Assembly: GCF_000186345.1 (NCBI RefSeq)
Contig: NC_014962.1
Span: 4,244,450 to 4,308,449 of the forward strand
DNA length: 64,000 nt
Reading direction: 5' to 3'
From: Isosphaera pallida ATCC 43644
GTDB lineage: Bacteria; Planctomycetota; Planctomycetia; Isosphaerales; Isosphaeraceae
The number at the start of each line of letters is the position of its first letter. Positions within the stretch are counted from its first letter, which is position 1. Of the stretch, positions 38,900 through 42,040 are shown piece after piece. The position numbers and the translations under genes are program-made. Under the pieces are notes generated by a model. It was not told where the DNA came from, did no database searches, and was given only the letters and a program-made list of their open reading frames with translations.

Positions 38900-39109
38900 T
38901 CGATCAACAGGTGGAATTTCCATTCGGTTTCATTAGCTGGGGTTTCCATCTCATTTTCACGCTCTTGCCGTTCGATGAAGCGGGGTCTAAGTTTTGTCAA
39001 CGTTCCTTGTCGATATTGACGTGACCCCACCGTTTCGATCGAATTCACGAAGTATTCTCTCCCTCGACTTGCCCACCGTTTCCACCCCCCCCCGCTTGGA
39101 GCTGCTCAC

Positions 39110-42040
39110 GTGTCTCAGACCCCCGCGAACCGTTTGGGCGTTCCCGTGGGAGCCGAAGAAGACTGCGAAGCAATCCCGTTCGAGTCGCCCGGCTCGGTTC
39201 AACCTCACGGCGTCCTGCTGGGGTTGGACCCCGAAACCGATGAAATCCTCGTGGTCAGTGAATCCTGCGAACTATTGCTTGGCCGCCCGGTCGATGCGTT
39301 GCGGGGCCGTCTGGTCGGCGAAGTGTTTGGCGATGTGGAAGGGGAGTTGCTCAGACGGGTCAATGAGGAGGCGCTCGTTCAGGGTCCGCGGTTTTTCCGA
39401 ATCGGTCTGGGGTTGGAGCGGGGCTGCGAAGCACGGGCGCATCACCACGACGGACTGTTTCTGGTCGAGATCGAGCCAATCCCAGAATCGGCTGCGGAGC
39501 CATTCGACCCGGCCCTCAAAGGGTTGCTCGGTCCCTTCGGCTCGTCGTCCGAGTCCGACACAGGATGGTTGATCAACCTGTTGGACGAATCCCGGCGGGT
39601 CGAGAACAGCGGGGAATTTCTGGAGCGGGTGACGCATCAGGTCAAAGTCTTTCTGGGCTACGATCGCGTCTTGATGTTCAAATTCGCTGACGATGAACAC
39701 GGGGAGGTGATCGCCGAGGCGGTGTCTCAAGGGATGGAGCCGTTTTTGGGGTTGCGGTTTCCTTCCTTCGACGTGCCCAAACGGGTCCGGGAGATGTTCC
39801 TGGTCAACCCAGTGCGCTACGTCATGGACATGAAGGCCCCCCCCTCGCCACTGGTGCCTGATCGTCACCCCCGCACCGGACGCCCGATCGACCTGAGCCG
39901 AACCCACCTGCGAAGCATCTCGGACCACTGCCGCGAGTATCGCAACAACATGGGTACCCGCGCCTCACTGGTGGTACCGGTGATCGTCGGCGGGGAGTTG
40001 TGGGGATTGTTGTCTTGTCACCATCGCACTCCGAAACGAGCCTCGGTGGGGTTGCGCATCGCGGCCGCTCAGATCGGTGGCATCGTGGGCAACGCCCTCC
40101 AAACCCTCCAAACCCGCGAACGCCTCCAGGCCCAAAACGAGGTTCAGGAACTCTTCGAGTCACTGCTGTCGGTCAAAGGCGACTCCTTGAGCGGTGAATT
40201 TAGTGAAAGCGCCGAGAAGGTCATGAAGGCGATGAGGGCCAGCGGCGTGGCCCTGGTGGTGGACAGGTCGGTCATGACGGTCGGCCAAACCCCCTCCAAG
40301 GAACAATGCCTCGACCTGGCCCAGCGGGTGGGCGGCGGCGAGTCCCCCTGGCTGTTTTGGACTCAGACGCTGGCTCAAGAGTTTCCCGACCTGGCGGCGA
40401 CCCTTCGTCCCGAGCGCTGTGCGGGGATGCTGGCGACCCGATTGTTCCACGACCGCAACGACTACATGATGTGGTTCCGCCCCGAACAGGCCCGCGAAGT
40501 GATCTGGGCCGGTAACCCGACCCAAGGAGTCCGCACCGTCGGCAACCGCTACGCCCTCTCCCCCCGCGAATCGTTTGAACAATGGCGTCAGGCGGTCGCA
40601 GGCACCTCAGCGGCCTGGGAGAATCGCGACCTCTCGCTGGCCGAGACCTGCCGCACCTGGATCTCCCAACGCATCGCCTCGCTTCGCGCCGACGAGGCCA
40701 ACCGCTCCAAATCCTCCTTCCTCGCCAGCATGAGCCACGAGATCCGCACTCCCCTGACCCTCATTTTGGGTTACACCGAAATGTTGATGGATCAGGAAAC
40801 CGAGCCGTGGAAGACGGAGGCGTTGCGGGTCGTTCGGCACAACGGCGAATATCTGCTGGCGTTGCTCAACGACATTTTGGACCTCTCCAAGATCGAGGCG
40901 GGCAAGTTAGAGACCCGTTTCGAGCCGGTCGATCCGTTCGACCTATTACGCGACGTGGTGGATCCGTTCCAACCACGGGCGCGGGCCAAGGGCTTGCGTC
41001 TGGAATTGACTTGCGCTACGCCGTTGCCCCGCCGCGTCGTGACCGACCCAGTGCGGGTCCGTCAGGTGCTCGTGAACTTGATTGGCAACGCCCTGAAATT
41101 CACCGACCAGGGTTCGGTCCGAGTGGTGGCCTCTGCCGAGTGGGAGCCGACGACGGGTTCGGCCCGCTGGATCGAGATCGCCGTTCACGACACTGGCATC
41201 GGTATGACCCCCGAGCAAATGAGTCGGTTGTTCCGTCCCTTCGAGCAGGTCGATCCGTCGTTAACCCGTCGTCACGAAGGGACCGGCCTCGGTCTGGCAA
41301 TCTCGCGGCGTCTGGCCCGAATGCTGGGCGGCAACATCACGGTGGAGTCAGTCGCAGGCCAGGGAAGCGTCTTCCGCTTCCGCTTCACGCCCGAACCAGA
41401 GTCGGATTTGGCCCTCCCCAACCCCGCCAACCAACCCCAAAGCGGCGAACCGGCCGCGGGGAAACCGACCGCGGGGATCTCGGCCACCGTTTCCAGCAAC
41501 GACGTGTCCTCCCCACCCCCCCAGCCGATGGCTGCGACCGATCCACCGTCCTCCTCGGGATTCCAACTCGTTGCCCGCCACGAACAAACCCCGCCCCCCA
41601 ACCGTCCGCCCGCCCGACTGGCCTCCCGCTCGGTGTTGGTGGTGGAGGACAACCCCGACAACCAGTCGTTGCTCAAGAATTTGCTCATCCGTGAAGGAGC
41701 CACCGTCTTTATCGCCTCCAACGGACGCGAGGCGGTCGAGTTCTTTTTGGAACGCGCCTCCGCCGACCATGACATTGATTTGATCCTCATGGATATGCGC
41801 ATGCCCATCATAGACGGCTACGACGCCACCCGCAAACTCCGTTCGATGGGTCTCAAGACTCCGATCATCGCCTTGACCGCCCAGGCAATGCCAGGGGATC
41901 TGCTGCGTTGCCTGGAAGTCGGCTGCAACGACTACATCTCCAAGCCATTCGCCGCCGCCAGTCTGATCCACACCCTGGTCAAGTGGCTTCAGGTCCAACC
42001 ACCCAATCCGCTTCGCGCGATGCCCGACCATCATCTTTGA
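39110..42040 (+). CDS. Bacteriophytochrome hybrid histidine kinase (PAS-GAF-PHY-HisKA-HATPase-REC)
   Basis: 976 residues, GTG start with GGAG 9 bases upstream. Red/far-red bilin photoreceptor by domain order. The N-terminal PAS has the bilin-attachment Cys19 in [17 protein letters not shown] (the DrBphP Cys24 region). The GAF has SFDVP with the conserved Asp221, [11 protein letters not shown] (272-282), and SCHH with the chromophore His pair. PHY has MWFRPE and the tongue motif SPRESF. The kinase has SHEIRTPL with His543, [16 protein letters not shown] and [14 protein letters not shown]-terminal receiver has phospho-Asp895 in MDMRMP. The GAF Cys/Met-His pair is replaced by His273-Cys274 in DHCREY, which is unusual. 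No haem oxygenase is adjacent. Confidence 0.95.

Follow-up and report, generated by a model that had tools for sequence, protein, structure and literature searches.

A bacteriophytochrome of the planctomycete Isosphaera pallida with cysteine in place of a bilin-pocket histidine

Isosphaera pallida IS1B encodes a PAS-GAF-PHY-histidine kinase-receiver phytochrome in which Cys274 stands where other phytochromes usually have the bilin-pocket histidine His260 (DrBphP numbering is used for site numbers up to 290 unless a residue of the Isosphaera protein is named). Judged from its sequence, the substitution is genuine and unusual, and the photoreceptor is otherwise intact. We tentatively propose that the bilin is carried on Cys19 and that Cys274 serves as a reversible second ligand, at C10, giving a violet/blue-absorbing state; this photochemistry we regard as close to evenly balanced, tipping slightly toward doubt. 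Observations behind the proposal are the intact domain order, the PAS cysteine, the in-register Cys274, the presence of a heme oxygenase gene, and the fact that distant relatives with Cys260 are encoded next to heme oxygenase.

The gene and its surroundings

The features of the gene, located in the window (the whole analysed stretch of 64,000 nucleotides), are listed in Table 1. Six Pfam domains (PAS_2, GAF, PHY, HisKA, HATPase_c, and Response_reg) each exceeded the cut-off. The protein shares the PAS-GAF-PHY module with HisKA and HATPase domains, the PAS cysteine, and the residues at the Asp207, His290, and PRxSF positions with the DrBphP, Agp, and PsBphP bacteriophytochromes, while it differs from them in Cys at His260, Phe at Tyr176, and a fused receiver. 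Of these departures, that at His260 concerns a residue that is usual but does not define the architecture, and it was also not His in 12 others of 89 matches from Planctomycetia. Alignment bore out the earlier note in that Cys19, Asp221, and S302-C-H-H305 are all present; F190 at Tyr176 and V288 at Ser274 had been absent from it.

Table 1. Features of the phytochrome gene (window coordinates)
Feature	Coordinates	Strand	Details
Bacteriophytochrome histidine kinase gene	39110..42040	+	976 aa, GTG start; GGAG at 39098-39101, 8 bases 5' of start
PAS_2 domain, residues 19-123	39164..39478	+	PF08446, E 3.7e-12
Cys19 codon, predicted bilin-attachment Cys (DrBphP Cys24)	39164..39166	+	Alignment
GAF domain match, residues 169-308, bilin pocket	39614..40033	+	PF01590, E 1.6e-14
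Phe190 for near-invariant Tyr176	39677..39679	+	This protein alone in 50 aligned rows
Asp221 (DrBphP Asp207), kept	39770..39772	+	Alignment
His273 (DrBphP Met259 position)	39926..39928	+	Sequence, alignment
Cys274 in His260 place	39929..39931	+	Sequence, alignment
Val288 for Ser274 (C-ring propionate anchor in DrBphP)	39971..39973	+	Alignment; passage of PMC7164956
SCHH 302-305 with second pocket His (His290), kept	40013..40024	+	Alignment
PHY domain, residues 356-520, tongue motif PRESF 485-489	40175..40669	+	PF00360, E 3.3e-37
HisKA, residues 534-598; His543 of SHEIRTP at 40736-40738	40709..40903	+	PF00512, E 4.8e-19
HATPase_c, residues 646-760	41045..41389	+	PF02518, E 3.5e-27
Receiver domain, residues 842-955, C-terminal; candidate phospho-Asp895 at 41792-41794	41633..41974	+	PF00072, E 1.1e-26

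Upstream, the nearest neighboring genes encode an aldehyde ferredoxin oxidoreductase and a beta-CASP protein; downstream, the nearest encodes a LarA-like protein on the other strand. None of the seven neighboring ORFs scanned with Pfam matched a bilin-related family, and heme oxygenase does not adjoin the gene. A second Isosphaera phytochrome (L021; genome C2:1657693-1658721, minus strand) keeps His260, and its tongue motif is PCASF, with Cys replacing the conserved Arg of PRxSF.

Register of the His273-Cys274 pair

The codons CAC TGC encode His273-Cys274, and the earlier note had assigned Cys274 to the His260 site by counting back from the NMG motif. This count is valid because residues 271-282 and the DrBphP segment SPMHMQYLRNMG (S257-P-M-H-M-Q-Y-L-R-N-M-G; verified by exact PDB matches) are both 12 residues long. 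The flanking Arg (R268 = R254) and Tyr (Y277 = Y263) were invariant in a nine-row alignment and stood nine residues apart with no net gap. In an AlphaFold model of residues 1-522 (mean pLDDT, 77.5), residues 272-280 form a helix, and the model superposed on the DrBphP chromophore-binding domain 2o9c with a Z score of 35.6 and an rmsd of 2.3 over 298 residues. Model residues 16..336 corresponded to 2o9c chain residues 20..322, figures that are range ends and not residue pairs; the upper ends are offset by 14, so that residue 274 falls on residue 260. Back-count, spacing, and modeled offset thus agree, confirming at the level of sequence and predicted structure that Cys274 occupies the His260 position and His273 that of Met259.

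We consider it very improbable that His273 is the structural counterpart of His260, reached through two compensating one-residue indels, with Cys274 an ordinary residue 261. Such a local gap, raised in the earlier note, was indeed given once, by a phmmer alignment against the Agp2-derived chain u100053 (SPIHC-EY) that paired the HC with His260-Cys261; among the phytochrome-like matches from Pseudomonadota, 7 of 51 (counted by hand) have His-Cys at 260-261, a common combination there, and the model confidence for the block 271-280 is only 74. The unaltered Arg254-Tyr263 spacing and the model offset speak against it, however, as do two planctomycete relatives, L119 (genome G979; GSCQTYYNNMG) and L117/L118 (genome G1039; RMCTTYLKNMG), which have Cys and no His at 260. 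The related suspicion that the dipeptide is widespread among well-studied phytochromes holds for His260-Cys261, one place off, but not for 259-260. Residues were called from ungapped proteins and MAFFT alignments; in a pairwise BLAST comparison, a gap showed L013 as SPHC-EY where the protein reads SPIHCEY.

Cys260 among phytochromes

His260 is called strictly conserved in a passage of PMC7164956. We scanned genomes with a DNA pattern ([His/Cys/Tyr/Arg codon]260-Tyr263-Asn266-Met267-Trp-Gly) that sees four residues at 260 and one spacing, judged each row by translating the matched stretch, and counted by hand. In Planctomycetia, 78 of 397 genomes matched, with 95 rows, six of which were dropped as non-phytochromes (G902, G1018, G917, G865, G397, and G1105); in the 89 kept, residue 260 was His in 76, Tyr in 10, and Cys in 3. 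Pseudomonadota gave 52 rows from 41 of 299 genomes, and after one (G1229) was dropped, the count was 50 His, 1 Tyr, and no Cys. For Cyanobacteria (88 of 386 genomes), the 150 matches listed comprised 140 with His and 10 with Cys, and a separate search added one further Cys260 protein (G435). The reversed control pattern gave five, one, and two matches in the three groups, respectively.

The cyanobacterial Cys260 proteins, at least 11 in number (L098-L107 and L061), all have Cys-Cys at 259-260, and in the eight compared there was no PAS cysteine, residue 264 was His or Tyr, and residue 274 was Val. Cys260 itself is therefore not new, since this clade has it. We take these proteins to be the tandem-cysteine cyanobacterial phytochromes (Song et al. 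2020 JBC). The Isosphaera protein resembles them in Cys260, Val274, and a polar or aromatic residue 264, but has His273-Cys274 in place of adjacent Cys259-Cys260, possesses the PAS cysteine, and falls outside their clade when L119 is included. In the dual-Cys bacteriophytochromes (FiDCB), which have a PAS Cys, the second Cys is reportedly at 259; the Isosphaera residue there is His, although the PAS-GAF-PHY fold is shared (AlphaFold model against FiDCB 9jry; Z score, 36.1). Like the Isosphaera protein, SaBphP1 of Stigmatella aurantiaca has naturally lost one pocket His, but at His290 (Thr289) and not at His260, according to a passage of PMC6126659. Among the leading titles of the open-licence literature, we found no account of this protein, of planctomycete Cys260 phytochromes, or of Cys260 combined with a PAS cysteine there.

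Both L119 and L117 have the PAS cysteine, and the gene of each apparently shares an operon with heme oxygenase. The residue before Cys260 is Ser in L119 and Met in L117, so the preceding His in the Isosphaera protein looks incidental, and the reciprocal His-Cys swap of the earlier note found no support; nor did a conserved DHCREY subclade, since His259-Cys260 occurred in this protein alone in the 50-row alignment. Tyr260 was seen in the planctomycete phytochromes L044, L045, L046, L047, L109, L118:6197-8884, and L121; the five such rows in that alignment are likewise without Pro258 and group with L117 in a single clade.

L119, with the same six Pfam domains, was the best full-length relative found (33% identity and 489 bits over residues 1-961), and its kinase-receiver half was the top match among 111 phytochrome ORFs, some cut by locus ends (275 bits versus 221 for the next). 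A search for further relatives of L119 within its family matched 15 of 170 genomes, the 15 places listed besides L119 being at 27 to 33% identity. To the relatives found, the Isosphaera protein showed at most 36% identity over GAF-PHY and 33% over the photosensory module, and its branch is long (1.85 to 2.23).

Removal of 16 of 103 extracted proteins (2 copies of the Isosphaera protein, 7 partial or weak, and 7 duplicates of other loci) and addition of the Isosphaera protein gave 88 rows. These were reduced to 63 by taking out 25 (long, near-duplicate, and a few others, e.g., L023, L028, L064, and L067), then to 40 by taking out 23 for speed, and 10 new rows made 50. In the 50-row tree, with trait columns excluded, the Isosphaera protein joined L119 (support 93/70, flagged as a meeting of two long branches), L117 was sister to the planctomycete Tyr260 clade (100/99), and the cyanobacterial Cys-Cys rows formed their own clade (99/96); the tree requires three changes of the Cys260 state. 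Its place next to Tyr260 proteins suggests that L117 came to Cys from His by way of Tyr. Forcing the Isosphaera protein and L119 into the cyanobacterial clade was rejected (43.9 lnL worse; P = 0.0054). Forcing the Isosphaera protein alone, before L119 was included, was borderline (18.1 lnL worse; P = 0.062), and in an incomplete 88-row quick search with trait columns kept, the joined tree was 23.45 lnL better (p-AU, 0.837).

In the same 50 rows, the Isosphaera protein keeps the equivalents of Arg172, Phe203, Asp207, Pro209, Arg222, Arg254, Ser257, Tyr263, Asn266, Met267, Ser272, Cys289, His290, and PRxSF. Phe190 is unique to it, the other 49 rows having Tyr, and substitutions at this site can block photoisomerization in Cph1, as stated in part of PMC12420706. 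Pro258, kept in 33 of 34 His260 rows and five of eight Cys-Cys rows, is Asp in the Isosphaera protein and is lost in L119 and L117 as well. Residue 264 is Arg, Tyr, or His in the Isosphaera protein (Arg), L119, and all eight Cys-Cys rows versus Leu or Met in all 34 His260 rows, yet L117 combines Cys260 with Leu264. Val replaces Ser274 in the Isosphaera protein, L119, all eight Cys-Cys rows, and six of the 34 His rows; in DrBphP, the C-ring propionate is held in place by Ser272 and Ser274, and at 1 ps His260 retracts (a passage of PMC7164956). Departures at 174 (Leu), 206 (Phe), 208 (Val), 216 (Phe), and 256 (Ile) are less telling. A cyanobacterial His260 phytochrome-like match (G574:C234:11928-12004, minus strand; HIEYYHNMG) has Tyr264, so a polar or aromatic residue 264 does not require Cys260, and given this case, Leu264 of L117, and the retention of Pro258 in five of eight Cys-Cys rows, neither companion change is a rule. 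Tests of P258, S272, S274, 264, and 216 against residue 260 gave no significant association, with three independent pairs placing significance out of reach; at position 216, some pairs ran in the opposite direction.

Chromophore supply and a possible second bilin linkage

The genome holds one heme oxygenase match (PF01126, 64 bits) and one homologue of ferredoxin-dependent bilin reductases (PF05996, 38 bits against a cut-off of 31; L135:8405-9292, minus strand; genome C2:1327602-1328171), which is unexpected in a chemoheterotrophic planctomycete. Of 20 chosen planctomycete genomes, 19 had heme oxygenase and 2 had bilin reductase; neither G979 nor G1039 gave a reductase match, so the occurrence of Cys260 is not tied to that enzyme. 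The L119 gene of G979 is followed, 147 bases on, by heme oxygenase. In G1039 (L118:3946-9174), genes on a single strand encode, in this sequence, heme oxygenase, a Tyr260 phytochrome, and the Cys260 phytochrome, and the two phytochrome ORFs as listed share 11 bases. Bilin binding by Cys260 proteins of this class finds its strongest support in these gene arrangements. The chromophore of the Isosphaera protein is likely biliverdin, but this is not certain in view of the reductase homologue and the product of the pre-1 type: pre-1 type bilin reductases are reported from Planctomycetes, and the one tested apparently made small amounts of phytochromobilin (in the excerpted text of PMC10151467). In another genome (L120; G908 C23:123500-133500), a His260 phytochrome match whose GAF segment is similar to that of the Isosphaera protein has a heme oxygenase match about 2.1 kb and a bilin reductase match about 2.8 kb from its start.

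According to our proposal, heme oxygenase would supply biliverdin, which would attach via Cys19. The Cys274 thiol would add reversibly to the C10 methine of the bilin, breaking conjugation and giving a violet/blue-absorbing form, and light would isomerize the D ring and break or form the Cys274-C10 bond, giving a long-wavelength form. Switching would in turn toggle the autokinase and the passage of phosphate to the receiver fused to it. The mode would resemble that of the tandem-cysteine phytochromes of cyanobacteria, except that the bilin would have its first bond to the PAS cysteine. The second thioether put forward in the earlier note is a sound hypothesis.

The C10 proposal draws on position 260 as the second-Cys site of the tandem-cysteine family, whose second Cys reportedly (Song et al. 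in 2020) gives a violet-blue doubly linked dark state, on the general C10 route to blue absorption, and on an engineered biliverdin case. It is favored by the three Cys260 changes on the tree, the heme oxygenase context of L119 and L117, and the companion residues 258 and 264. Excerpts of PMC6628166 and PMC4469895 describe C10 ligation as shifting absorption to the blue in dual-Cys photosensors, and the dual-Cys cyanobacteriochromes (DXCF, insert-Cys, and AM1_1186g2), GAF photosensors whose second Cys is placed elsewhere, use the C10 thioether mechanism that we propose here. With biliverdin, an engineered AM1_1186g2 forms the second-Cys adduct and switches between far-red and blue, but the wild type gave no adduct (both in part of PMC6628166). 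Some cyanobacterial phytochromes respond to violet light, according to a passage of PMC12420706 that cites its references 5-8, the tandem-cysteine paper being number 7. The proposal is weakened by the result with wild-type AM1_1186g2, by companion changes that are no rule, by a reductase homologue that may supply a bilin other than biliverdin, by the flagged long-branch join with L119, and by a heme oxygenase gene that lies elsewhere in the genome; the long branch and Phe190 point to possible relaxed constraint and were also counted against it.

A passive substitution, in which Cys274 never bonds the bilin, red/far-red photochemistry proceeds on Cys19, and loss of the pyrrole-water His lowers the pKa of the chromophore and alters dark reversion, is a serious alternative, though a doubtful one. 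In passages of PMC12420706, Cph1 H260Q still forms a relatively normal Pfr with an apparent pKa shifted in both photostates, and for SaBphP1, the natural variant at the other pocket His (Thr289), a Pr-to-Pfr transition of the wild type is on record in part of PMC6126659. Because Tyr occupies the site in 10 of the 89 matches, it is not strictly His in Planctomycetia. By itself, however, passive substitution does not account for Cys having been gained separately at this very site, in one case by a lineage that reportedly senses violet. We lean slightly toward the C10 ligand.

The photosensory module might instead be degenerating, or bind bilin without useful photochemistry, the kinase answering another cue. 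The very long branch, the scarcity of close relatives (at the identities given above), and Phe190 are consistent with this, and other His260 substitutions can abolish chromophorylation (a passage of PMC12420706). We consider it improbable nonetheless, since the D207, P209, R222, R254, Y263, H290, and PRxSF positions, the reading frame, and the kinase are intact and the genome contains heme oxygenase.

Isosphaera pallida is described as a phototactic planctomycete in part of PMC3072084, as the earlier note had surmised. The fullest form of our proposal, a phototaxis sensor using biliverdin or another bilin that is not phycocyanobilin, bound twice, to the PAS cysteine and to a convergent Cys260, able to switch between violet/blue and red/far-red, and acquired in Planctomycetia independently of cyanobacteria, we hold to be unlikely as a whole.

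If the C10 adduct is real, this would be a natural biliverdin-type phytochrome addressable by violet/blue and red light without phycocyanobilin, and cyanobacteria and planctomycetes would each have put the same site to use on their own. Should there be no adduct, the Cys260 and Tyr260 proteins found in nature still probe the real need for the pyrrole-water His. For Isosphaera pallida, Cys274 may let the sensor of a light-seeking bacterium of hot springs see violet/blue and not red alone.
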